Positions 13,621 through 64,000 of a stretch of 64,000 bases of DNA are shown in pieces. The translations under genes were made by a program, and so were the position numbers. Under the pieces are notes generated by a model. It saw only the letters and a program-made list of their open reading frames with translations. It searched no databases and was not told the origin of the DNA. The stretch spans positions 8,749,274 to 8,813,273 of the forward strand of contig NC_092647.1 in assembly GCF_039555335.1 (NCBI RefSeq). Direction: 5' to 3'. Within the stretch, counting starts at the first letter, position 1. The number at the start of each line of letters is the position of its first letter. The DNA comes from Amphiura filiformis (taxonomy: Eukaryota > Echinodermata > Ophiuroidea > Amphilepidida > Amphiuridae).

Positions 13621-14204
13621 AGTCAATTTCTAGTAAGCGATTTTACACTCGTCATAGACCGTGACTAAATATCGCTCGCTGCCAATCACTCAAAATTTAA
13701 TCTAATTTGGTCTACATACAACATGTACAAGTTACAGCACTTCCAATGTATTCTTTAATAACAGACAATTCGTATAGCCATTAATATCCCTGAAAACGAA
13801 AAAAAGGGGTTTCAACAGTGCTTTACTTAGTGTTTCATATTGCTATGTATGATCTTAAATACCTATATAGATCACCCACTCCCCCATGTTGGTGCCTCTA
13901 CAGGCTGAGTCAAAAAGAAGTAAACTCATGTTTGAGGGGCTGTAACTAGAGATCTGTAAGGAATCTGCTAAAAATGAAAATGTCATTGGAAAGAGCAAAT
14001 TCTACACGTCTAAATAAAAAAAAGAATTGTTGCAATTGCTTACAGCAAACTCAAGTTATATTCATTTGAATACAACCACCCATTTTTGTAGCTGCACACG
14101 GTTTCACTTCCCAAGTACCTATTATATTGACTGGTAATGCGCGATATTCCAATGCAAATAAAGGTGTGGTTTCGATCAATAATTGTCACTTAAAGGGTTC
14201 TTTT

Positions 14205-16148
14205 CAATATGTATTTTTCCTCATTGCACTACATTCTATATTCGTGGACAGTAAGTATTATTGTTCCAATTTTTAAGAAGGGTGATGTGAATAGTCCCTC
14301 AAATTACAGGCCTATTTCTCTTCTCGATGTCATAAGAAAAATTTTTATGCATATTATAAACAGTCGTTTGTATTCTTGGTGTGAAAATAATAATATTTTG
14401 CCTGAAAATCAAGCCGGTTTTAGGAAAGGCTATATGACTGTTGATAACATTTTTACACTCCATGGTATTATTCAAAAATTTTTGGTCAGAAAACGTGGTA
14501 AATGTTATTGTCTTTATGTTGATTTCTCGAGGGCCTTTGACAGCATACCTCGGAATAAGTTACTTAAAAAATTAAGGATATTGGTGTTAATGGTAAATTG
14601 TATAATATTCTTTGTAATATAAACAATATTTTAAAATCGTGTATTAAAAGTGGCTCACATCTTTCAGATCTCTTTGATTGCCCCTTTGGTCTTCGTCAGG
14701 GCTGCCAAATTAGCCCTCTTTCCTTCTCAATTTTTATTAGTGAGCTTTCAAGACTTCTTGATGTTAATGGTGGTCGTGGAATTCAACTTGATAATAACAC
14801 TGAAGTCAAATCATTGTTCTATGCAGATGATATTATTTTAGTTGCAGATAGTGTTGGTAGTTTAAAAAAACACATCGATGTTCTTGAATTGTTTTGTAAT
14901 ACTTGGGGCATGTCAGTAAATGTAGATAAGACCAAGGTTATCATAAACCGAAAAGGAGGCAAATCAGGAAGGTATGAAAAGTGGTTTTTCAAGGTAAAGA
15001 GCTTGAAATTGTTAGCGCCTATAAATATCTTGGTGTAATGGTTTCAACTGGTAATACTTTTACTGAAGCAACCAAAACGCTTGCTATGCAAGCAACAAAA
15101 GCAATGTATGCTTTAGAAAGTGCAATGAAAAAGGTTGGTGGTTTGCCCTTCTCTGCATATTTCAAAATTTTTGATTCAGTCATTGCACCTATTTTGCTTT
15201 ATGGTTCTGAGATCTGGGGTGTAAAAAGATATGATGCGATTGAGAATGTACATATTAAGGCCTGTAAAAAGTTTTTAGGGTATCATACAATACATCAAAT
15301 AGTGCTTCTTTGGGTGAGTGCGGAAGACCCCCTATGTATACTTTTCAGGTTGTGCGTTGTATAAAATATTGGTTGAAATTAATTTTTATGTCAAATGATA
15401 GATACCCAAAGAAATGTTATCTGATGCTTTTTAATTTAGATCAACGTGGTATGACAAATTGGACTACAAATATAAAACACTTATTGCAGACGTCTGGTTT
15501 CGGTGTAGTGTGGCAAACTCAAGATGTTGGTGATTTAAAATTATTTTTGAATATTTTTGCCACCAGAATTAGAGATATTTCCTTTCAAAATTGGTTTTCT
15601 GATATGAGTTCAAGGAATAAATTAAGAACCTACATTCAGTTCAAATCACTCCTTGCTCCTGAAAGGTACTTATTATTGATTAGAAATTTTGGTAAAAGAA
15701 GGGCCATGGCAAAATTAAGATGTTCCGATCACCCTCTCAGAATTGAAACTGGCAGGTGGAATAAAATAAACGCCGAGGAGAGGTTTTGCGAATTGTGCAA
15801 TGATGGTAGTGTTGAAGATGAATATCACTTTGTTTTGGTATGTCCCTTTTTTCGGATTTTAAGAGATAAGTACATTCCTGTTTTTTTATAGAGTCAATCC
15901 ATCATTATATAAGTTTATCTCTTTGATGAAAAATGAAGATATTAATGTTATTCAAACACTTTCAGAGTTTATTTATATTGCTCTCAAACTCAGGTATAAT
16001 ATGCATTCTGATACATAATGTTTCTCTATTAATCTAAATTGTTGATTTTTCTTTCATATGCATGTAAATAATGTCTGTCACCGTGTAATTATTGTTTGCT
16101 TTGTACTATGGGCTGGAGGCCTACGTACTTAATAAAATACAATGAATG
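14205..16148 (+). mobile_element. 5'-truncated LINE with frameshifted reverse transcriptase
   Basis: Four overlapping plus-strand frames (14209-14622, 14598-15038, 14981-15364, 15310-15891) join into one reverse transcriptase: IVPIFKKGD and NYRPISLL fingers, NQAGFRKG, a VDFSRAFD block, GLRQGCQISP, catalytic FYADDIILVAD at about 14819, then a YLGVMVS thumb and a C-terminal zinc-knuckle-like CELCN-x7-DEYHFVLVCP. At least three frameshifts separate the pieces. The endonuclease half is absent. The 3' end is marked by AATAAAATACAATGAATGAA at about 16130. Clade not resolved by eye. It lies inside the mariner-like transposon. Confidence 0.85.
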
Positions 16149-42557: not shown

Positions 42558-43642
42558 TCATACCATCATTCCCGTGGCATTATTCTCAGGCCCAGATTGG
42601 TACTCTGAGCCTCCAACACTCAACTGTTGATAACCGGGCAACTGTAACTTTCCGCCACCTCCAGCAAGACCTTCTTCTAAAGAACGACTGAGTAAGGAGT
42701 AGGACCCGGGAATTTCTGCAGCTTTAACTTCACTGTCCTTAGGCTGGGGTGCCACACCATCGGCGCAATCATTGACAATATCTTCGTAAAGTTCACTTGA
42801 ACGGCGGCGTTCCGACTTTGCCGATAGTTCCCGCTGTTGTTGAAGCATTATTTTGTTTTTCACAAGTTCCCGCGCATTCCAGGTACTGCTATTTACCACT
42901 TGTCTTTTTGAATCTTTATTCAATTTGCTGGTAGTAGACACAATTTTGAACGATGGCTTCTTTTTCTTCTTTTCAAATGCATCGCTCATACTTCTTGATA
43001 AAATTGGTAATTCATCAAGTCCATGCGAGCCAGGCACAGATAACGATACGACTCCTTTACCACTATGCTTTGAAATACCCGGCTTGCTTGCATTAGCATC
43101 AGATGAATCGTCATCGTCATTAATAGTCGCCTCCAAAGTATAGTACACTGGGTTTCCGTTCGTACCGGAAGCTTTTGATGGCTGAGCGTCATCGTCATCT
43201 GGCGATGTCGGTTCCTCTCCAGAAGAGATCACCAGACGGCGTTCGTCTGACTCGTAGTTATTGCATTTCTTGTCCTTTGGTGGTGGTTGAAAATCGCCTT
43301 TCCCCGTCAACTCATAGGTTATGTCATGCATATTTTGTAGAAGGTTTGAAGGCGTAGCACTTCCTTTCAATATCCTACTCTTGTTGTTTTTCGTTTCGGT
43401 CGGTGTTTGATCTTGCTGGCCACTTTTGTTAGTGAATCGAATCCCCGGCCATTTTTTGACGAGCCGACGCTGGGGAAGACTATTGGATCGTCGTGGTTTC
43501 TTAGGACTCTCTCGACCAATTACATTTTCGTAGTCGACTCTGGTTTCCTGCGGTGATTTCTTAAGAGGTAAGACGATGTTTGGAGAGGAAGCTGAACGAT
43601 TGCGACTTTCAGCAAAATCCATCTGTGTACGGTTTGCCAAAC
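42558..43642 (-). CDS. Gene 1 exon 6: cytoplasmic tail
   Basis: Longest exon, with acceptor TTTATTTTTAG before GTTTGGC; the first two bases complete a glycine codon. It encodes residues 180-539, ending GMMV and TAA. Serine-rich with acidic runs (DDDD twice), basic runs (KKKKK, KKPRR) and prolines, no globular domain, hence probably disordered. Possible signalling sites: YENV, YELT, YYTL, YEDI, YSLL, YQQL. A proline segment FQPPPKDKK might bind SH3 or WW domains. The last-exon position, entry phase 1 and size resemble gene 2. Confidence 0.85.
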
Positions 43643-46600
43643 CTAAAAATAAACGGGAAAAATAACAAAACTAACTTGATAATCCTTTGAAACAATATTA
43701 ACACCTACTGCAGAAATATTTCAACAACAGTCACATGGCTTGATTATATAAACTAAGAACATAGGAATATCAATCAAATTGGCCGGGTGAAGCAAGGACT
43801 TCAACCGTTTGTTAGTGTGGAGTTTCCGCGCGACTATTTAATATTATTGGAAAACCTCCCTCATGTCTCACTACAGCCTCGCTACACCTGCTACAGCAGC
43901 TTTTTCCTTCTATCCCACAATGCACTATTCCAGGGGGTATGACGTAGTTCATCAACCTCATAGATCGTGTGCATCTGATGGTCTTTGCCAGGCCTTTGCA
44001 ATTAGTTTGTCTTAATATGGGCATACTGATTCCATATATGCGGATTATCATAAAGGCCATCGATGTTACTAATTATGCAATTATTGAATACACGAGTAAT
44101 GCAGTTACGGAGCGACGCAGAACATCTGTGTAAGAGATTCTGAAACGGACGCCGACAAAATATCACTGCGTGTCCCGTCATTAGTTTTTCACCATTAGGT
44201 CTATATATAAAATGTATAGAAAGTTAGGTTTCAATAGCAGGAAACTTTTTTTGGCGACGACACCATGTCCATAAGGCATCTAGAAATGTTGATTTTTGCC
44301 CCCGAAAGGTGTTCGTGATAGCGCGCCATTATCGTGATGATCGGGGATTCCTTTTTTGTGATGAAGGCACCAGCCGAAATGTCCGTATTCCAGAATGTAA
44401 TGAACATAACTCTGTACTCCCCCGGGGAGATGATGTATTTTGCGACACTCATACCCCCCTGGAATAGTGCATGATGGGAATGAGGGAAAAAGGTCTATAA
44501 ACATAAACACGCCTTAAACCCGGCAGGGCTGAGGCGGCCGACTTCCATTCTAAAGTAATTGTCCCGCGCGCAGGGTATCAAAGCAAGGGTTAATATAACA
44601 ATTTGTGACATCACAATATAAATGGCAGTTCAAACAACCCGAGGCGTGTCGGAGGGGGAGGTTGGATGTCATGGATCAATATATCCATTATTCTTGTCCC
44701 GGAGAGTGGAGCGAGGCTGTAGCTGGGATGTAGTGGAGCTGTAGTGAGGCTGTAGCGAGAGTGGAGCGAGGCTGTAGCTGGGATGTAGTGGAGCTGTAGT
44801 GAGGCTGAAGCGAGAGTGGAGCGAGGCTGTAGCTGGAATGTAGTGAGGTTGTAGCGAGAGTGGGGCGAGGCTGTAGCTGGGATGTAGTGGAGCTGTAGTG
44901 AGGTTGGAGCGAGGCTGTAGCTGGGATGTAGTGGAGCTGTAGTGAGGCTGTAGCGAGAGTGGGGCGAGGCTGTAGCTGGGATGTTGTGGAGCTGGGGCGA
45001 GGCTGTAGCTGGGATGTGGTGGAGCTGTGGTGAGGTTGTAGCGTGAGTGGAGCGAGGCTGTAGCTGGGATGTAGTGGAGCTGTAGTGTGGTTGTAGCGAG
45101 TGGAGCTAGGCTGTAGCTGGGATGTAGTGGAGCTATAGTGAGGCTGTCGCGAGAGTGGGGCGAGGCTGTAGCTGGGATGTAGTGGAGCTGTAGTGAGGCT
45201 GTAGCGAGAGTGGGGCGAGGCTGTAGCTGGGATGTTGTGGAGCTGGGGCGAGGCTGTAGCTGGGATGTAGTGGAGCTGTAGTGAGGTTGTAGCGAGAGTG
45301 GGGCGAGGCTGTCACCTAGGTTTCATTATCATTGAGGTATAGGACTTTTTATTTTTTTGGAGGAGAGCAGATAGGGCAACTACTTGATTATATTTCTACA
45401 TGTTCATACTACATACTCTGAAAATTTTAGAAAATTCGCACGAGTCCGTTTTTTTAAATCACATTTTGTTCCTAAAATGGGGTTATAGCGCCCTCAACGG
45501 GCACTCTCTCCATAGGGCTACATGTAAAGACCAGTTATAGACAAATGGCCCTAAAATAAAACGGACTCGTGCGAATTTCCTCAAATTTTGCATATGATGT
45601 AGATTTAACATCTGGAATGTAATGCAAGTGATGCCGTTGCTGCTCTCCTAAATTCATTTTTAAAATGTCCGCCCCAGACCAAGGTGAGCTGTAGCTGGGA
45701 TGTAGTGGAGCTGTAGTGAGGTTGTAGCGAGTGGAGCTAGGCTGTAGCTGGGATGTAGTGGAGCTGTAGTGAGGCTGTCGCGAGAGTGGGGCGAGGCTGT
45801 AGCTGGGATGTAGTGGAGCTGTAGTGAGGCTGTCGCGAGAGTGGGGCGAGGCTGTAGCTGGGATGTAGTGGAGCTGTAGTGAGGTTGAAGCGAGAGTGGG
45901 GCGAGGCTGTAGCTGGGATGTAGTGGAGCTGTAGTGAGGCTGTCGCGAGAGTGGGGCGAGGCTGTAGCTGGGATGTTGGAGCGGTAGTGGGGGAGCGAGG
46001 GGGGCGAGGCTGTAGCTGGGATGTAGTGGAGCTGTAGTGAGGTTGTAGCGAGTGTGGCGAGGCTGTAGCTGGGATGTGGTGGAGCTGTAGTGAGGCTGGA
46101 GCGAGAGTTGAGCGTGGCTGTAGCTGGGATGTAGTGGAGCTGTGGTGAGGTTGTAGCGAGAGTGGAGCGAGGCTGTAGCTGGGATGTTGTGGAGCTGGGG
46201 CGAGGCTGTAGCTGGGATGTAGTGGAGCTGTAGTGAGGCTGTAGCGAGAGTGGAGCGAGGCTGTAGCTGGGATGTTGTGGAGCTGGGGCGAGGCTGTAGC
46301 TGGGATGTAGTGGAGCTGTAGTGAGGCTGTCGCGAGAGTGGAGCGAGGCTGTAGCTGGGATGTTGTGGAGCTGTAGTGAGGTTGTAGCGAGAGTGGAGCG
46401 AGGCTGTAGCTGGGCTGTAGCGGAGCTGTAACGAGCCATGACCGAGGTCCGAGGAATTAAACCTACTGTGTCTGACAACATGGTCTGAGGACTTCCTATA
46501 CCTAAATTTGAATGCACATCAAAAATTGGTTTATATTTTACTAAATAACTAAATAATGCATGTGTAGTCCCAACTGCTTAAAATCACTACAATAATGTCA

Positions 46601-49600
46601 GTGAACGATGATCAGACACACATCTGGAATATATATCTCGTGTAGGCCTATTTGGGATATATTTCATCTCATTTCCCGATTACAAGAAATCTATAGGCTT
46701 AACCTAATAGGCATAAGCCATTCAAAAGTTAAATTGTAGTTCAAAATTTGAAATCACAATCTCACATTATATTAATTTGATTGTATTTTCATGATAAATG
46801 AACATTTCGATTTCAGTTGTGAGCAGTGATAAGCTTATTGCTTTCCTTATACTACTCATTGTTGGGGATTGCACTAGCTTTCCGGAAGAGTTCACTGTTT
46901 CGATTCGGATAATACTCTCTGTACTCTGTGCCGGGGATATGTACTAATGTAACCTTAAGGCGAGTCGGACAGGACCGTCACTTAGGGGCTGTGCAATAAT
47001 TATGAGCCCGGGAAGGTCAAATTTCTGAACGGCCCGCCAAAAATCGCTTGCCCCCCTCTCGGCCTGCCAAAAGTCGCTTGCCCCTTCTCGGCCGGCCAAA
47101 AAATATCCCCCCCCCTTGCACATGCCAAATTTTTGGATCCCAATTTGCAAACCTATTATGGTCTATAGACCTTTTTCCCTCTTTCCCATCATGCACTATT
47201 CCAGGGGGGTATGAGTGTCACAAAATACATCATCTCCCCGGGGGAGTACAGAGTTATGTTCATTACATTCTGGAATACGGACATTTCGGCTGGTGCCTTC
47301 ATTACAAAAAAGGAATCCCCGATCATCACGATAATGGCGCGCAATCACTAATACCTTTCGGGGTCAAAAAACAACATTTCTATGCCTTATGGACATGGTG
47401 TCGTCGCCAAAAAAAGTTTCCTGCTATTGAAACCTAACTTTCTATACATTTTTATAGACCTAATGTGAAAAACTGACGGGACACGCAGTGATATTTTGTC
47501 GGCTTCCGTTTCACTTTTTTTCCGGAGATGAAAATAAGACGTCAACAGAATCACAGATGTTCTGCATCGCTCCGTAACTGCATCACTCAATAATCATGAT
47601 AATTGCATAATTAGTAACATCGATGGCCTTTACGATAATCCGCATATATGGAATCAGTATGCCCATATTAAGACAAAATAATTGCAAAGGCCTGGCAAAG
47701 ACCATCGGATGCACACGATTTATGAGGTTGATGAACTACGTCATGCCCCCCTGGAATAGTGCATTGTGGGATAGAGGGAAAAGGGTCAATATATAAATGT
47801 TGCGAGCGCAGCGAGCATGAAAATAAGCATATTAAAGCGTTTCCGTACTGTTTTCCGAAGCCTTTTTAGAGCGTTTTATTTAAAACGCGCCCCATGAATG
47901 TGTGCCAAAATCGCTTGCCCCCACCTCTCGGCTCGCCAAAGATTGTTTGCCCACCCCCCCATTTTCGGCTCGCAAAAATTTCTTCCCCCCCATTTTACCC
48001 TCCCCAGGGCTCATAATTATTGCCCAGCTCCTTAGGGGTTCCAATAATTTTGCACGGGGCGCAAACTTTCGGATGCTGACTTTCTCTATAAAATTTGATA
48101 AAATTGGGTGCTTTACGCCCAATGTTTGTTGGTATCACTATGAGTTTAAAATATTAGATTCTCGTTCAATATTTTAAATCTAGCTCGACCAATAAATATA
48201 GGCTCAATCGATCCAATTTTATATATATCGTAAAACACTCAAAGAGTACCCATATTTGCCCAAATTGGGTGCTTTTAAGGGCACTTTTGCCCAAGTGCGC
48301 TAAATTGGGCGCATTGTTTCCACTGAAAGCATCGATAAACCAAAATCGCTGAAAAGATACCGCAAAATCGTGGTACACCTTCAACTAAGAAGAACCCCTT
48401 CTCCCATCTCCCGAAACCTAGAAGTGTTTGCACTGTTTTACTTTGGTAAATTTACTATTTATATTAAAAAGAACATGTAATAATTTTGTGTGACCATTTA
48501 CGTCGAGCTTCGATGATATACAGCACTAATTTGTGTGTGATTATAATAAAAAAATATTATCAAGTTCTGCAAAATGAAACATAGCTCAATCCTAATCATT
48601 ACTTCAGTACTAACTGGAGATAAAAGAAAAAATTCACTAGTTTACTAATTTCTTGAAAAAAAACCCCACAAAAATGCATTTTTGGTATGTTTTCTCACAA
48701 TCGAGTCACAATAATCAAAGACTAGGAACAAGTCTAAGTATTCAAAATCTTGAATATATAGCAAAATTTTCACTTTTTTGTGGTTCTTTAATTAAATTAT
48801 TGGTTATAAAAATGAAACATGTCTTTTCCAAAAATTAGAATGCATAAATTGAAATTAGACTTCGTACAAGTCTTTAGACTTGATTGTCACAGCATGTGAA
48901 AAACAAACTAAAAATGCATGTTTTGGCCATGAATTCATACATTTGGCCAAATCGGAAATTTTACTTTTATTGCCAGTTAGAACTAAATGAAAGATTAAGA
49001 TTTAGCTACGTTTTATATCACTTTCATTTGGCAAAACAGGATAATACTTTTTCATTCAAAAAATGAGTGCTGTATTTTTTTTGGAATAGACCCCGATTGA
49101 AGTGAGAAGAAATTTGTATTATATCTTGAGTTTAATAGCGGTAGAGTTTTTAAAATTCCCATATAAGTTTCACCAATTTTTCTAAAGATTTTGGGACAAC
49201 CTGTACTCTACGTATATTAATTATGTACCGGTTTATACAAGTCACTTTACCTGGCAAAGGTAATTGTTGTGTAGTTCCCATGTCATACTGTTCGGGTTTA
49301 ACTTTCCTGTAATATAGAAAATAGAACAGAGAATTATTATCGTATAAAATTGTTGATAAATTAAATTGACTAGTTTATTATTATTCCATCGACCGTCTGT
49401 CGGTCTGGGGTTGCAAGTGCAATTTCTCGGAACTGTTAAGGTGTAAAGTATTGTGATTAGGTGGAGGGGTGGCAATTGGCGGTCTTCAAATTCCACTAGG
49501 ATTTCATCGCAAAATAATTATGCTAATTTGGTAGTTCATATGCATAATTTTGCATACATTATTTTTTTATTATTGGTGTGTGAGGTGTGTGTGGTGGGGG

Positions 49601-52600
49601 GGGCGCCTGAAAATGATCACTTCCGGGGACATTTTCGTGTGTTTAATCACACAACCGGGGACATCTGCCAACCGGGGACGTCCCCGGTTGTAGAGACTAT
49701 ACCACCTGCATCCCCTATGGCTAAAAAGCTTTAAAATGCAATAAAAAAACCGGGGACACTACACAGGTGTGGGGTCATGACCCCAAATGGTCAATTATTC
49801 CATCAAAAAATGTTTTTGAAATCGGCCATTTTGTCCCCGGTGTGTCGATTAAAAACACACAATGTACGTGAGTGTCCCCGCTTAATACACAAGTCGGGAA
49901 GGGGTGTGTGTGTGTGTGTGGATTTTTTCCCCCCAGCTCCGAGTAAAATCGTCCGGTTAAAATGATGCATGTCAAGGTAGTGGTATTGCGGCCCGACGCT
50001 TTGCGTCGAGAACCGCGCAACCCGAGAACCGCGAAATCCTAGTTTGAGTGTAGATTTATTGATCCATCTAGATCGGTACATGTTTGGACTGATGCACTCT
50101 ACATAATAATTCAGGGTGTATCAGTACAGTGGTATTTTAGGCTATGGACCTAGAGAATTTTGTCGGCAAAAATTGACTGTTGTCGTCAAAACCATGTGAT
50201 TGTCGGCAAATGTAGTTAAAGCTAGGTGTGATTGTCGGCAAATTGCAAGAGTAATATAAAAGGTGAATGTGTCACGACATTGCGCCGTTGTTACGTAATA
50301 GACCTATTTCCATTGTCAATATTGTAGTATAGTTACTAATTTAAAAAATCGGTCAAAATCGAATTGAATCGAATCCCCCACTTTTTAGATTCTTGAGCGC
50401 CGTCTTGGCTAAAAAAAAATTTGGGTCTACAATTCACAAAATATTTCCGTCGGCAAAACATGCTGAACACACCCCGAATCATATTGGTCTAGCGACGCCC
50501 CTGGTTCAGTGTCGGAAGGCTAAAATATAAACTGAATATGCCTACGGTAACCAAATTATTGGATCGTTGTCACTCGACATTAATGATTAGGTTTGGTGTG
50601 CTTCTTCACTAAAGAAGGACTTTCAACATTTGAAATGATGTGCCTTCGCAAAATAATGGGAGTGTCACGTCTCGACAGGATCCGAAACACCGCCCTTCGC
50701 AAAACCCTCGAAATGGAATTTACCATCCTGGACAGAATCTCAACAAAAAGACTCCGGTACTTCGGCCATATACAGAGAATGCCATCATCACGTTTTCCTA
50801 AACTAGCATTTGAGGCACATATCCATGGCAAACGCCCAAGAGGGAGACCACCAAAAAGATGGAGTGACTGCCTGAAAGCCGACTGTAATAAAGTAAACAT
50901 CAGCTCTTTGGTCAGCGCTAGCAGGCTAGCTCAAGATAGAAGGAAGTGGCAGGAGATCATGAAGCAGATCACCCCAAGTTGGAGTGAACGCCATAGGTCA
51001 AGGTAGGTCAAGATCAAGGTCTTCGGTAAACTACCACGAATGTATAAGTGTAATAAACAAATAAACAATTCAGAAATGAATTGTTATTTATATTAATTGG
51101 ATTAGTAAACAAAATGCAAATTGTCATGTGACAGTGTGGTTTTTGACTTTTTGCGGGAGTTAGGGGGTTAACCCCATGATTCAAACCAAAAAAAATTGCA
51201 GCTCCTACACCCCCCCCATTCCAATGAACGTACCTGTGAGAACAATGGCAATCATCTGCCTTTTGTTCCTTGCCTTGTCGCATTTGTCGAATCAAATAAC
51301 ATGAAGCCACGACACTCCCCATTGCTAGAAAGAGCGATATCCCTACTATCACTAGTATTGCGATTACCACAGGAGTAACAATACTTCCCACCACTGTTGG
51401 CATAAAAAAAATAATAAATATGTACTTGTAAGCCTACAAAAGTAAAACTATAAAAAAACTTAACATGTAGTGAAATTCATAGAAGAAATGTAAAATATAT
51501 ATAAACAACTTAAAACATGTAATGAAATACATAGACGTAATTTGCTCATTTTTTTTTAAAAAAAGAGCAAAAACATATTGCGTTTTGTGAAATTGTAAAT
51601 CAGGAAGGAAAACAACAGATAAGACATATTCAATATTGTTTCCACAGCAATTAACAACCCTCAATAGTAGATTATTATTATTATTTTTTTTTATTATTTA
51701 TTATCTTTACCCAGGGTATACCCGAATCAGCTTAAAGCTGTTCTAACCGGGGCCCTGCAATATACAATTAAGTTACAACAATATTAAAAGACACTCTTAT
51801 AAAATATAGTAATTATACATAAAAACACATGATTTAGATACAATATACAAACAATTATGGCACGTAATTTCATATAATCATAGGTATATACAACTTTTAA
51901 AAAACATCAAATCAAGCGAATATGCAATCTACTTTAGATGGCTACTTTTATACATTGTCTTAAACGACTGAACATTGACAGCATTTCTAGTAGGCGGGTC
52001 AATATTATTCCACAACTTAACGCCACTATAGCTGAACGAAAATTTAAAAGACTCGATGTCAGTACCATGAACAATGGGTGGAAGAGCTAGCAAATCAGCT
52101 GCAGCTTGCCTCGTAACACGAGATATCCCACCTTATGATCGGATTCACCATAAGAGGAAGATAGTGCTGGGTCACTCCATATCAAATCAAGGAGGCGCCC
52201 CACCTGACCCCCCCAGATTTGCTTTATATTTTAGTCATATGTTGTACCTGTAAAAATATTAAAACCTGCAAATTTGAGGTCTGTAGCTCTTACGGATTTT
52301 CTGTGGCAGCCATTTAAAGTTGGAGTAGGGGGTCTAAATTTGGACCCAAAAGTTGCCCTTTAAATAAATTTCATCTTTGGGCGTTTGTGCCTTCTTTATA
52401 AAAAGAAAGAGAGGTCTGAAACTTTGCATACACACTAACTGCATGCCCATTTTGTCAAAAAATAAAAAATAAAAAAATTCTGTAATTGCGCGTTGTGTCA
52501 CGGGCTCATTAAATATGCAAGAAAAAATGTAATGTTTTGTAAACTGGCAAGTTTAGCCCCCCTAAATTCACATTTTTTGTCAGATTAATTATTTTTGTTG

Positions 52601-55600
52601 TCACCGATGCTATATATAGGATAAATACAATGCATACCCAAAAATTGGGGTCACAACTCATTTACATTTCGAACAGCGCCCTCACGAAGATGGAATTTAT
52701 TGCACATTCAACATTTTCAGGGGCCCAAAGTCGATGTGGTCCACCTTCAAAGTTTATAAAACATCACTTTTATATAACTACAAGTCTTAAATTACAACTT
52801 TGCTAAGTCCCAGTAATTGTATAGGTTGACTTCATATAAAATGACAAGCCCAAAGTTAACCATTTTCTTATGATTGCATGTAGTGCAAAAGGGTGCAAAT
52901 GTGCCGAATTCGGAAGGTTGAAAGTCAAATTGACCCCAATATTGAAAATAAAATGGAAATAAAAGTAAATAGGGCCAATAACTATGCATCTAGTCATTTA
53001 TTTTCAATATTGTGGCCATTTTGACTTTTAAACCTTCCGAATTCGGCACATTTGCAGTACATGCAATCATAAGAAAACGGTCAACTTTAGGCTTGTCGTT
53101 TTATATGAAGTCAATCTATAAAATTAATGGGATTGAGCAAAGTTGCAATTTAAGACTAGTTGTCATATAAAAGTGATGTTTTATAAATTTTGAAGGTTGA
53201 CCACATCGACTTTGGGCCCCATGAAAATGTTGAATTTGCAATAAATTTCATCTTCGTGAGGGCGCTGTTCGAAATGTAAATGAGTTGTGACCCCAATTTT
53301 CTGGGTATGCATTGTATTTATCCTATATATAGCATCGGTGACAAAAAACAATTAATCTGACAAAAATGTGAATTTAAGGGGCTAAACTTGCCAGTTTACA
53401 AAACATCTTCGTGAGGGCGCTGCACTCCAACTTTAAATGGCTACCATAGAAAATCTGTATATATTGAAAACGAAATGGAAATACAAGTAAATAGGGCCAA
53501 TAACTACTCATCTAATCATTTATTTTTAATATTGTGGCCAATTTGACTTTCAAGCCTTCCGAATTCGGCACATTTGCACTACATGCAATCATAAGAAAAT
53601 GGTCAACTTTGGGCTTGTCATTTTATATGAAGTCAACCTATACAATTACTGGGACTTAGCAAAGTTGTAATTTAAGACTAGTAGTTATATAAAAGTGATG
53701 TTTTATAAATTTTGAAGGTGGACCACATCGACTTTGGGCCCCCTGAAAATGTTGAATTTGCAATAAATTTCATCTTCGTGAGGGCGCTGTTCGAAATATA
53801 AATGAGTTGTGACCCCAATTTTTTGGGTAGGCATTGTATTTATCCTATATATAGCATCGGTGACAACAAAAAATAATTAATCTGACAAAAAATGTGAATT
53901 AGGGGGGCTAAACTTGCCAGTTTACAAAACATTATATTTTTTCTTGCATATTTAATGACCCCGTGACACAACGCGCAATTACAGATTTTTTATATTTTTT
54001 ATTTTTTGACAAATTGGGCATGCAGTTAGTGTGTATGCAAAGTTTCAGACCTCTCTTTCTTTTTTAAAGAAGGCACAGACTCCCAAAGATGAAATTTTTT
54101 TAAGGGGTAACTTTTGGGTCCAAATTTAGACCTCCCTACTCCAACTTTAAATGCCTGCCAAAGAAAATCCGTAAGAGCTACAGACTCAAATTTGCAGGTT
54201 TTTAATATTTGTACAGGTACAACATATGACTAAAATATAAAGCAAATCTGAGGGGGTCAGGTGGGGCGCCTCCTTGATTTGATATGGAGTGACCCTGCTT
54301 CATAATTGGTAAAGTAGGTAATGGGGCTACGCATCATGAATATGAACAAATTAATAAACACAATGGGAAACGATTGCTCGCTACAAGAGGAAACTGAATA
54401 TAATTAATATTCAGTTTATCCAAAGTGTTAGAATTAAATACGACAACAAATAAAAACAAATAGGCTACCAGCTCCCACTCATAAACGGCGGTTAAAACTG
54501 GTTCTAATGTGAGCATGATATACAATTATTACATAAGTAGACAAGTGAAGGAGATCATTACTGATGCTTAATCGTTTCCCCAATACAATATAAGTAATAG
54601 GTAATGAGGCTACATCCTGCACAAATACAAAATAATAAACACAATGGGGAACGATTGCTCGCTACAAGAGGGAACTGGCAAGGAGGCTCTCCACACTATT
54701 TGGTTCTTTATCGCTACAAGAGGGAACTGGCAAGGAGGCTCTCCACACTATTTGGTTCTTTATCGCTACAAGAGGGAACTGGCAAGGAGGCTCTCCACAC
54801 TATTTGGTTCTTTATCGCTACAAGAGGGAACTGGCAAGGAGGCCCTCCACACTATTTGGTTCTTTATCGCTACAAGAGGGAACTGGCAAGGAGGCTCTCC
54901 ACACTATTTGGTTCTTTATCGCTACAAGAGGGAACTGGCAAGGAGGCTCTCCACACTATTTGGTTCTTTATCGCTACAAGAGGGAACTGGCAAGGAGGCT
55001 CTCCACACTATTTGGTTCTTTTAAAAGAACCATAAGAAGATGTTCAGGCGATCTGTAGCAAGATTCTAAATGCTCATTAAACCACTTGCCCTCTTCGCCC
55101 CTGGGGAGTGCAGGGGCTCGCAACATCTTCCTGTGGAATCATGCTGATTTTGATTTGATCCTTCAGTAGACCAAGGAATGGGCATACAAGTTTGTCTCTC
55201 GCAACACAACATCTACTCCAGTGGAACTGTTATCCAGGGAGATTGAACAATATCTTCAGAAAACACCCCATGAAAGAGTACCCTCCAAGCTCAGTTCCAC
55301 CAGATTCAACCAGCCATGGTTTAACACCTCGATCTACCAAACGGATCTGTCGAAGGAAAGCAAGGGCTTTCAAGAAAGCTAGAAAGACCAACAGAGACCG
55401 TGATTGGAGGAGATTTAGGCGATTGAAGAAGCAGAGCCAAATTACCTGTCGTCAGGCCTACAACAAGTACCTTCCTGACATAATACGCAGTGAACCTGGT
55501 GCAAGTAAAAGACTGGGGCCATTATCAAAGACAAGCGTTGTGATCAAGTTGGTATTGCTCCTCTAAAGGAAGGTAATCATCTTTGCAGTGACCCAAAGAC

Positions 55601-58600
55601 CAAAGCCAATCTGCTGAATAGCCAATTTGCACCAGTTTTTACCAAGGATGATTCGTCAACTCTATCTGATCTTAGACACAGCACTCATCCACCAATATCC
55701 AGATCACCAATCAAGGCATTGTCAAGTTGCTGAAGAATCTTAACCCATACAAGGCTTCTGGTCGATCCTGACGGTGTGCCTGCCAGACTTCTGAAGGAAA
55801 CTGCGGAAGAGATCGCTCCAGCCATCTGCCTCCTCTACCAAGCATCCCTCGACCAAGGATCTCTCCCATCTTCGTGGAAGTAAGCAGTAGTTCCCATATT
55901 TAAGAAGGGCAGCCGATCGTCATCAGCAAATTATAGACCTATATCTCTCACCACCATTCTGTGTAAGCTATGCGAGCATGTGGTCCATAGGGCAATAATC
56001 AACCATCTGTCTGAACAGAAGATCCTGTCCGATGCACAGCATGGCTTCAGAAAGAGAAGATCATGCGACACACAGCTAATCCTGACCATCAACAACCTGG
56101 CCAAGGGGATCGAAGAAAAAGGACAAACAGACATGATATTGCTGAACTTTGCTTAAGCCTTTGGTAAGGTTTCACATATGCTTCTTCTGCACAAGCTCCA
56201 GCACTACGACATACGTGGACCTACTCTTCAACCCGGAGGGGGTTCTCCCTGGACCTGGTTGAAGGTATACGGGGATGTGCCACGGTTTTGGGGTACCTTT
56301 TGAGCAATTTTGGTATATCAATGGGTGGGTTTTCAGTGGAGACCAATGCGCACAATTGGGCGCATTTGGGCAAAAGTGCCCCTAAAAGAGCCCAATTAGG
56401 GCAAATTTGGGTGCTTTTGGGTGTTTTTTGTGAAAAATTGGTATACTGATGGGTGGCAAAACCAGCAAAAAGTAGGTATAGAGAAAATCAGCATCCGAAA
56501 GTCTGCGTGGCACATCCCCGTAAATTTTTTTTCGAAGACCCCCCCCGGGCTCTTCAATGGGTTACGGACATCCTCAGCCACCGAACACAGCAAGTCCTGG
56601 TTGATGGCCAAATCAGCACTCAAGCCAATGTGTCTTTACACGTACCACAAGGCAGCGTTCTGGGACCGTTGTTCTTCTTGGCATTCATCAACGACCTACC
56701 GGACTGCGTAAATAGCTCGAAAACCCGCCTGTTTGCTGATGATACTGCACTTTACAAGACGATATCGTCCCATCATGATGCTTCCTTACTGCAAGAAGAT
56801 CTCAATGGCTTATGTAATTTCACCCAGCCAAATGCCAGGTGGTGCGTGTTACCAAGAAGTGGAAACCAAACACCTTCTCCTACAGCATTCATGGTATCAC
56901 TCTTGAAAACTTGCAATGGTAATACATACTCCCGGACATATTCAAAAATGATTCATATTCTTTGAATGTGCATGAGTCCTGACACTGGGGCACGTTGGTG
57001 CAGCGGTCTAAGACTTCCACTCATACTCACGAGATAGCTCGAGGTCGTGGATTCGAATCCCCGCGACATCGACGTGTTGTGCACTTAGATCGTAGGCCCT
57101 TGACCATGTGGCCTTTCCCCATCCAGGTGTACAAATGGGTAACGGCTTTATTCAATTTTAACAGTCATGCTGCGGACACTATACCCCGGGGCCCCGCATC
57201 AACATTACATGGTGGAGTCTGGTCCAATCGCTTCCAGCCTATGCACTAGAGGTTCGTTCCCTTACTCTTTATACCTTTATCTGACAGATTATTGTGATCC
57301 CATTATTTGGTTCTCTAAAAAGCCTGTAGAACCATGGACAGTAGAATTCTCTCTACTCTCTATGGTAGAACACGACATGTTTCTAAGGGTTTTCCATTTT
57401 CAAGAAACATTGAGAGTTCAATTGCAAGGGTTACAACGACAGTAGTTCCCCTAGTTCCCCCTGGAATTGCGAGCTCTCTAATAAGGCTATATGCCTACTG
57501 GATGACAAAGTGTTTCTTACCTATGTTACCTGCGAGATATTCCAGACATGTACCGCTCTCATTCCTGTTAGGATAAAAACAAAAGGAAACGTTAACAACC
57601 ATGGTGAAGAGGACAAAAAGATTATACTTTATCGAAATCGACTTACCTACTTGTAGAACATGTACGATTTCATTCGACTATTTTCCTATTGGATTTTCTA
57701 AATTTTGCAATCGATTGAGGGCACGTGCCCTTATGACGCTACGCCACAGTTTGACGCCTATCACTACCAGATGAAAATATCAGATTTTTCTGTAGATATC
57801 AAATCATTGAATATATGAACGCGTACCTTTACAAGATTTTGTACTTATTGGAGTTTGGACATTGTATGCCTATTTGAAGGGGTACGGAAAGTGCGCGAAA
57901 GCGTAAGTACTCGTCATTTGTGCGTTAAAGTAAACCCTAGCCCTAACCCGTAGGCCTACCACAAACCAAATATTCGGAATAGCTCCTGTTCTTTTCAATT
58001 CAAAATACCGCTCCTTCTTTTCTCCTAACGGGTTGGCCCGGATTAATGCTCAATTTCCAGGATTTCCAGGCTCTGTGACAAGCTTGCCTAAACAGCATCG
58101 CCCGTATAAATTGCGACGTAACGTATGAGGGTATAAAGTCACAACTTGTCGTATTTCACATGTGTGCTTCCTAATTATCTTATCTAGGCCTATATATCAT
58201 TAGTATTTCCTCATATTTAGAAATCAAGAGACACTTACCATTTCGAACACTCCAATGTCACTTTCAAAGTTATATTGGCCATGGTAATACCAGATTGCCA
58301 ACAACCAGATAACACTGTTGAAACCAAGCGACAATAGTCTATTGTCTTTAAAAGCCAAATCAATGGGCTTGGTATAAAGCTTGCTATACATATATAAGTC
58401 GAAACAGTTCTGTTTTCTCGACAATACGCGGCTGATATGCCCAATTTGTATTCAATTATCAGGTTCACTTTCGTCAAGATACGACGTTATCAAATATTTA
58501 TATGATATAGTCAGATAGTGAAACAATGTCGTGTCACGCTATGCGAGAGTCACAACTCTCACTTGTGTGTCCAGCAATATCGAGTACTTGGTACAACGCT

Positions 58601-60997: not shown

Positions 60998-61003
60998 TTT
61001 ATT
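60998..61003 (-). promoter_or_regulatory. AATAAA overlapping the gene 2 stop codon
   Basis: The final codons GAA TAA AAA create the polyadenylation hexamer AATAAA across the stop. Whether it is used is unknown. Confidence 0.35.
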
Positions 61004-62812
61004 CAGTGTGTGGGGGTTTCATTAGCTCATTCATTGGAGTTGCACAATCATCCAATTGTTCATGCTGTGATGACGCTGTTGTTTTGAATTGATCTTTATT
61101 CATATCTACTTCTCTCCTGGCTTTGCTTTCAACTTCATCGTCGCCAATTCCTGCCAGATCAGGGCGTCGCTCTGTTTCTTTCCTCAGAAATTCCATCGGC
61201 GTTTCATAATCATCCACTCGAGGTCTCGCCTCCTCATTCTTTGTCAAATATCCTTTATCTTGTAACATCGGAGTTCTTTGATCCATTGTTTCCCCTTCGC
61301 TATTTGAAGCACTGTCATTTTTGGAAACTGCAGGCGGCTTTGGAAGTTCTACCATTTGTTGTTCATACTCATCTGGTTCTTTTTCTCTTTTCAAATATTC
61401 TATCGGTGTTTCATAATCATCAACCCGAGGTCTTGCATGCCCATTCTTGGTTGAATGTTCTTTATGATCTTGCAATATTGGAATTCTCTGATCCAACGTT
61501 CCTTCCTCTTCGCTTGAAGCACTTTCATCTTTGGAAACTTGAGATGGTTTTTGAAGTTCTACCATAGGTTTTTCATAATCATCTGTACGGTTTCTTAAAG
61601 TTTCTTCTTTACTCGCCACCTCTTTATCATTTGAATCATCCTCACTGGTCTCACTACTATCATTTTTTATAGAAAGAACAAAATAATCATGATTTAAGGG
61701 TTTTTTCGCTTCATCTCTTTTGTGTTTCTCTACGGGTTTTGCATACCCAACATCCTCAAACTTCCGATTCATACCACCATTGTTTCCATCATTTGACGGT
61801 TTGCAATCTTTCAAAGATGTCACCATGTACGGGTGTGCTTTTTCGGCATCATCAGTGGCTGGAAAGGACAACGGAGGCTTGATTGGAGAGCCTTTGTGAG
61901 CCATACTTTGTTGGTCACTACTTCCGGGACTACTTCCTGACGATGATCCTAAGTTTTTCCCCAGCGGTATACGCGCAAAATTCCTCAGGGGCTTGGAAGG
62001 CATAGGAGGGGTTTGATCTGATTCAGTGTCGGTTTCTTCAGTACGAGATTTCACCGCCAACTTATCTAAACTGTGTCGCTTTCTCTTAAGGCTACTTTTC
62101 TTCATTTTCCGATGCTGTTTGGTACGCAGTTTATCGTAGCTGTTTTCGGATCCTGATTCACAAGCAGAACTCGCTCCACTGGTGAAAGAAGTCTTCCGAA
62201 GAGTACGATCTAGTTGATCGTAATCGGCGTTGTTAGTTTTGTAAAATACAGAGCCAGGACTTGACATACTTCTAAAAGGTCGCCTTACAGGTAACGTATT
62301 GGAAGAAGATAAGTGATGATCACCAGCATGACTAGAATGAATTGATAACGATGACCCTGATGGACTCGACACAGGGGTTTCATGATTAGAGCCTGCTTCG
62401 TGTGAATAGTTGATTACTATATAAGGTGCCGTAATTTGATTGTTGATGGTAGTAGGTGCTGGTGTTATCTTATTTGTGGTACCTGATTGCAGAGGAGCAT
62501 CTTGAGGTGGTGCTTCGACTGCCCAATCACAAGATTGGTGAATATCAGAGTCGGGGATATCAAACGATGGTCCGCTTGTTAAAGTTGGACTAATAGGCTC
62601 TACCACAGGTTGTCTCGTTCCGTCGGATGCTAGGAATATAGATTCAGAAGTGTCTGCTTCGGGGATGTTGGGGAGTTCCCTATTGCCCATGCTGCTTGTT
62701 TGGCGGACATAACCTTCTTGGGCCTGTCCTCTGTCGTTAAGGTATTTCATTAGACCAGTTAGGTTACGTGGAGCCTGGAGTGGGGACTCTACAAGGTCCA
62801 CACTATCTCGAC
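60999..62812 (-). CDS. Gene 2 last exon: 600-residue tail with DDYExP repeats
   Basis: Acceptor CTTCTCCAG before GTCGAGATAG; the first two bases complete a glycine codon, then RDSVDLVESP and 600 residues counted from 62801 to the TAA. Low complexity, serine/acid rich, no globular domain. Five related motifs: DDYEKPMVEL (407), DDYETPIEYL (461), DEYEQQMVEL (477), DDYETPMEFL (530) and DDCATPMNEL (584, tyrosine lost). With YAKP (353) this gives four YxxP sites, the pattern bound by Crk-type SH2 domains. Residues 405-540 hold two copies of a 70-residue repeat (also TxDQRxPxLQD and ARPRVDDYETP). YDQL (194) and YDKL (222) are further sites; RKMKKSSLKRKRH (231-243) resembles a nuclear localisation signal. 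Confidence 0.85.
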
Positions 62813-63118
62813 CTGGAGAAGTAACAAAAGAGAGATTTGTTATTTGTAGACAAATCGAGATAAATAGTAGATCTCAACTATGTCAACATGCACGTGAAAT
62901 GTCTCTGCCAGACAGTGATTTTTGAAACGTTACTTTTAAGTACGGCAATTATGAAATAGCGTCCACGGATCCAATATTCCGATGCACATAAATAGTTTGC
63001 ATTGAACAGTATAGTTTAGTATGTAGATACCTAATAGTGAGAGTGATAGAGGAATATAATGTCAAATCTAGTCTTACCTGTCCCAATATCGAATGGTATG
63101 TCTCCTGAAGAGGTCAAA
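60999..63118 (-). CDS. Gene 2 (partial): cytoplasmic tail of a receptor-like protein
   Basis: Two exons, 63078-63118 and 60999-62812, join in frame across GT..AG borders; the gene continues beyond the right edge. Intron phases (2 into the small exon, 1 into the last) equal those of gene 1 introns 4 and 5, and FDIGT in the small exon matches YDMGT there, so the genes look like tandem paralogs. The signal peptide, ectodomain and membrane segment, if the parallel holds, are outside the window. Tail role inferred: a tyrosine-phosphorylatable scaffold. Confidence 0.7.
63078..63118 (-). CDS. Gene 2 small juxtamembrane exon
   Basis: 41 nt, acceptor CTATTTCAG, donor ACAG|GTAAGAC. Only one frame joins to the last exon: LTSSGDIPFDIGT then a split glycine. 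Entry phase 2, exit phase 1, same as gene 1 exon 5. Confidence 0.7.
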
Positions 63119-63951: not shown

Positions 63952-64000
63952 CTCAAAGCATTGATGATGTTATTGATCCCTATCTGCCTTGACCGGATGT

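Follow-up and report, generated by a model that had tools for sequence, protein, structure and literature searches.

The last coding exon of an uncharacterized gene from the brittle star Amphiura filiformis encodes most of the cytoplasmic tail of a single-pass protein, and carries an array of tyrosine motifs that was enlarged by an old tandem duplication of about 70 residues. The duplicated segment has been under purifying selection since it arose. Judged from its sequence, the array is a plausible multivalent docking strip for Crk-type SH2 adaptors, an arrangement for which other receptors offer precedents.

The exon was examined within a 64,000-nucleotide stretch of genomic DNA (the ‘window’; the A. 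filiformis genome paper is PMC11310086). It occupies window positions 60999..62812 on the minus strand, reading from 62812 to 60999, as an open frame bounded by a splice acceptor AG at 62814-62813 and a TAA stop codon at 61001-60999, and codes for 604 residues, the first codon being split by an intron. A protein-database search returned a protein of 865 residues, recorded as ‘uncharacterized protein [Amphiura filiformis]’ and called P0001 below, to which the exon product is 100% identical; a residue number in the exon frame plus 261 gives the corresponding residue of P0001. A tblastn search with P0001 also located a juxtamembrane exon of 41 bases at 63078..63118 on the minus strand (LTSSGDIPFDIGT...; E 6e-5), flanked by AG and GT borders. 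That search found no further upstream exons of the gene within the 64,000 nucleotides, and the remainder of the gene therefore presumably lies past position 64000.

Elsewhere in the window, what looks like a neighbouring gene, or pieces of it, extends over 42558-51393 on the minus strand. A membrane-helix exon starts there at about 51393, and a tyrosine-rich exon at ∼43642-42558 (minus strand) contains the sequences VDYENV, NPVYYTLE, LYEDI and GYQQL; assigning these two exons to a single gene is a guess. The tyrosine-rich exon matches nothing in Pfam and is not similar to P0001 (best BLASTP E 1.5), and paralogy between the two tails is unsupported. Two arrays of a ∼55-base satellite (44702-45312 and 45688-46430) are open in several frames and produce long spurious open reading frames. 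Seven copies of a 52-base satellite are present at 54659-55021 with 99% matches, and are therefore probably recent. Open reading frames at 14194-15891 and 56450-56965 resemble, by eye, fragments of a LINE-type reverse transcriptase.

The sequence of P0001 and a structure model of it support a single-pass protein comprising a short, cysteine-rich EGF-like ectodomain, one membrane helix and a tail of ∼630 residues. The N-terminus contains a hydrophobic stretch that by eye would suit a signal peptide (modelled as a helix at residues 13-42). Between residues 70 and 197 there are 24 cysteines, within which a pattern search recognised two complete EGF-like cores (at 101 and 144) and a third, partial module. 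The sole match of P0001 in the PDB is 6u11, an ‘EGF-like domain-containing protein’ (E 1e-5, residues 97-162). A Pfam scan of P0001 at E values up to 10 gave no EGF match and returned only FRD2 (E 0.15, below its cut-off), and the exon alone matched nothing in Pfam or among PDB sequences. Hydropathy places the membrane helix at about residues 208-238, a block with a pLDDT of 82-88 in the model. Because this helix is encoded upstream of the exon, the exon product is cytoplasmic, as the initial annotation had proposed; its further claim that the protein is a receptor agrees with the topology (EGF-like ectodomain, membrane helix, long tail), from which receptor status itself is deduced. The model was made from the single sequence of P0001 with no alignment and is too weak for a fold search (mean pLDDT 40.4, with 725 of 865 residues below 50). 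Its clearest features are the membrane helix and a few EGF-like hairpins, and confidence is low along nearly the whole tail. The tail is thus probably disordered, a prediction that is only likely because the model rests on one sequence.

Five serial DDYExP motifs had been reported in this tail. A pattern search does find five sites, each four residues further along than the positions originally given (407, 461, 477, 530 and 584), and three of the five are intact: DDYEKP at residues 411-416 (61566..61583), DDYETP at 465-470 (61404..61421) and DDYETP at 534-539 (61197..61214; all features of the tail are on the minus strand). The third site in order, DEYEQQ at 481-486 (61356..61373), has lost its proline, as copy alignment also indicates, and the fifth, DDCATP at 588-593 (61035..61052), is the copy correctly described as having cysteine in place of tyrosine, with an additional change of glutamate to alanine. 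Neither the proline loss at 481 nor an isolated YAKP upstream of the array (residues 357-360, within GYAKP 356-360; 61734..61745) had been noticed earlier. The 16 tyrosines of the exon thus include four in YxxP (the three DDYExP sites and GYAKP); the tail also has tyrosines in YDQL, YDKL and YIVI. When the exon was shuffled with its composition preserved, YxxP proved mildly enriched (4 observed, 1.3 on average after shuffling, with 177 of 5000 shuffles reaching 4) and [DE][DE]YxxP strongly so (3 observed, 0.03 on average, reached by 0 of 5000), counts that do not represent independent events, since the motif copies are related by duplication. No further degenerate copies were detected upstream by a profile scan (best score 11.0, at residue 8, against 14.4 for the 95% level of shuffled maxima). 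GYAKP itself scored 7.6, under the mean of shuffled maxima (9.9), and its kinship to the array motif is not supported. Also upstream of the tyrosine array, at 61983-62009 (residues 269-277), lies PPMPSKPLR, a proline-rich PxxPxR pattern that we take to be of the SH3-ligand type.

The five 13-residue windows around the motif sites align gap-free. Aspartate at −2, [DE] at −1, [MI] at +4 and leucine at +7 are kept in all five, and the tyrosine, the glutamate at +1 and the proline at +3 in four of five each. Loss of the tyrosines in orthologues amid conserved surroundings had been named as the observation that would count against the phosphotyrosine reading; between the copies within this tail such a pattern is seen in part, the tyrosine being gone at 588 and the proline at 481 while D(−2), [MI](+4) and L(+7) persist throughout. 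By eye, the sites fall into two types that alternate in the order a-b-a-b-a. The a-type sites (411, 481 and 588) are each followed by M.EL.KP, and the b-type sites (465 and 534) read VDDYETP[IM]E[YF]L.

The tandem duplication of ∼210 bp, or 70 residues, that the initial annotation described is real. Tandem Repeats Finder (TRF) reported one array in the exon region, at 61190-61585 (period 210, 1.9 copies, 78% matches), and protein alignment defines copy 1 as residues 410-479 (61377..61586) and copy 2 as residues 480-548 (61170..61376), with 43 of 68 aligned residues identical and a score of 215, whereas none of 500 shuffles scored above 50. A purpose-written count of the Nei-Gojobori type gave a dN of 0.204, a dS of 0.741 and a dN/dS of 0.275 between the copies; by codon bootstrap the 95% interval is 0.11-0.60 and the 99.9th percentile, 0.89, is still below 1. 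The duplicated segment has therefore been under purifying selection since duplication. Given a dS of 0.74 the duplication is old, and gene conversion could only make it look younger than its true age. The suggestion that repeat number evolves accordingly holds for at least one change in the past, which was not recent.

Across the 11 codons of the b-type block ARPRVDDYETP (residues 460-470, 61404..61436, in copy 1 and residues 529-539, 61197..61229, in copy 2), the copies differ at four synonymous sites and at no nonsynonymous one. Elsewhere the nonsynonymous counts are 4.5 over 32.3 sites in the a-type stretch (411-423), 17.8 over 82 sites in the linker and 5 over 22.7 sites in the nine codons that follow the b motif. 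The longest identical run between the copies is 11 residues (permutation p 0.096, not significant), and the ARPRVDDYETP block was picked after seeing the data, so that its conservation is only suggestive.

Counted from the tyrosine of GYAKP, successive sites are spaced by 56, 54, 16, 53 and 54 residues, and removing one 70-residue copy would leave a near-regular spacing. An older repeat of ∼54 residues underlying the whole array is not established, since the linkers outside the 70-residue duplicate lack convincing homology. With the motifs excluded, the linker cores L1 and L3, which belong to the duplicate, are alike (0 of 1000 shuffles reach their score) and L0 and L3 weakly so (5 of 1000); the scores of L0-L1, L0-L4, L1-L4 and L3-L4 were reached by 125, 858, 676 and 681 of 1000 shuffles, respectively. 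Adding the motifs back makes L0-L1 (1 of 1000), L0-L3 (0), L1-L4 (0) and L3-L4 (25) look alike, though not L0-L4 (227), a likeness that the motifs themselves drive.

Searches of the protein database, which require shared five-residue words, returned only P0001 and hence no orthologue, whether the query was the exon (7990 candidates sharing most words scored, E up to 1), P0001 residues 600-865 (1031 candidates, E up to 10) or P0001 residues 66-300 (1022 candidates, E up to 0.001); the strict cut-off in the last of these may leave out distant EGF relatives. Comparison of the repeat DNA with phage records gave 31 records with partial matches, which we attribute to chance (E 2 to 6 among the five listed, none covering 80% of the query). 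P0001 is not named in the titles or abstracts of the listed literature on YxxP/Crk/SH2, DCBLD2, MEGF10/Draper/CED-1 or repeated phosphotyrosine motifs, and ‘brittle star’ is absent among the listed matches on MEGF10 or EGF-like receptors.

Several known proteins offer partial parallels. DCBLD1 and DCBLD2 (ESDN), like P0001, span the membrane and have YxxP in series on the intracellular side (8 and 7, respectively); they bind the CRKL SH2 domain, and Src-family kinases and Abl promote this binding (PMC6029619). Their ectodomains consist of CUB, LCCL and FV/FVIII domains, unlike the EGF-like modules of P0001, with which we found no sequence relation, and their motif sites are conserved across vertebrates, whereas those of P0001 are known from one species. 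The substrate domain of p130Cas/BCAR1 likewise contains serial YxxP (15 in a protein with SH3 and FAT-like domains; PMC2689226 and PMC5043372), but this is not a membrane protein, and neither the N-terminal SH3 domain nor the FAT-like C-terminus of the Cas family has a Pfam match in P0001. By its domain content in Pfam, P0001 is neither a DCBLD nor a Cas protein; it may nonetheless work like DCBLD. Choanoflagellate membrane proteins (PTSG_05573 and others) resemble P0001 in bearing YxxP repeats in their cytosolic part, and two phosphopeptides covering 5 of the 10 YxxP of PTSG_05573 bound the SH2 domain of M. brevicollis crka1 (PMC5043372); the peptides tested were EM/DM-YDVP, the ectodomains differ from that of P0001, and SH2-like domains occur in 3 of 5 of these proteins. 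MEGF10/Draper/CED-1 and SREC (SCARF) resemble P0001 in layout, with a cysteine-rich ectodomain that in P0001 is apparently EGF-like, a single membrane helix and a tyrosine-bearing tail. The former group is characterised by an EMI domain and cytoplasmic NPxY and/or ITAM sequences (PMC8092387), and Megf10 has 17 EGF-type modules (PMC8487046) compared with about three in P0001. Because P0001 has no EMI match (Pfam, E up to 10) and a pattern search found neither NP.Y nor an ITAM (Y..[LI]x6-12Y..[LI]) in it, we do not file it under CED-1/Draper/MEGF10.

The explanation that we consider best, with a confidence somewhat short of even, is that P0001 is a single-pass surface protein whose duplicated DDYE[T/K]P array, once phosphorylated, docks Crk-type SH2 adaptors multivalently. 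Clustering of the ectodomain would lead Src- or Abl-type kinases to phosphorylate the array tyrosines in the long, probably disordered tail enlarged by intragenic duplication; the resulting pYxxP sites would recruit Crk-type adaptors multivalently, and this recruitment would couple the receptor to small-GTPase control in adhesion, migration or engulfment. What we infer here is that the ectodomain clusters, that the tyrosines are phosphorylated and by which kinase, that Crk reads them, and what the biological role is. The intact DDYExP sites and GYAKP, the purifying selection, the unchanged ARPRVDDYETP block and the topology favour this explanation, and the YxxP feature of the Crk SH2 ligand class is present in the four sequences noted above. 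YxxP is the Crk/CRKL SH2 consensus, bound as pYxxP (PMC6029619 and PMC5043372), and the preference is older than animals (PMC5043372).

Against a plain pYxxP signal, only three of the five array sites keep both tyrosine and proline, and either residue is less well conserved than D(−2) and L(+7), which suggests that selection may act on more than pYxxP; the reader may be mixed or different, or the motif may act independently of phosphorylation. The merely mild enrichment of plain YxxP, the non-significant longest identical run and the lack of orthologues in the database searches also weigh against the Crk explanation. We think it unlikely that the phosphotyrosines are read mainly by a non-Crk SH2 protein (such as RasGAP or an Abl-, Nck- or PLC-gamma-type protein) or by a mixture. 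On this view the acidic DDYE context would suit Syk-, EGFR- or Src-like kinases. The glutamate at +1 and the invariant [MI](+4) and L(+7) exceed a minimal Crk ligand, and the tail also has the YDQL, YDKL and YIVI tyrosines, whereas the proline at +3 in four of five sites is what Crk/CRKL would prefer. More improbable is that selection acts on D[DE]xxxx[MI]xxL, acidic then hydrophobic, as an endocytic, adaptor or cytoskeletal site for which tyrosine and proline are dispensable: its four positions are indeed the invariant ones and the a-type sites all retain M.EL.KP, yet the unchanged b-type block contains both residues. We also doubt, slightly more than we doubt a non-Crk reader, that this is a fast-evolving disordered tail with no specific motif function, its repeat produced by slippage or unequal exchange and its motif descended from a chance ancestor. 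The absence of relatives in the protein database, the low model confidence from a single sequence and the degenerate sites all fit such a tail, but a dN/dS of 0.275, with even the upper bootstrap bound below 1, argues against it.

Returning to multivalent Crk docking, a bolder extension, which we hold to be unlikely, is that a brittle-star-specific EGF-type receptor evolved its own Cas-like strip, whose sites lie mostly ∼54 residues apart and which the 70-residue duplication extended; receptor and Crk scaffold, normally separate proteins, would then be combined in one. If true, a membrane receptor with serial YxxP would have originated independently once more, beside DCBLD and the choanoflagellate proteins, and multivalent Crk docking would have arisen anew by duplication within a receptor that is known to date only from a single species. 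If the duplication alone is real, P0001 would be an ordinary receptor with a fast-evolving tail. A. filiformis is an animal studied for arm regeneration, and comparing the number of sites across brittle stars could reveal how the valency of such a signalling tail rises and falls in evolution.
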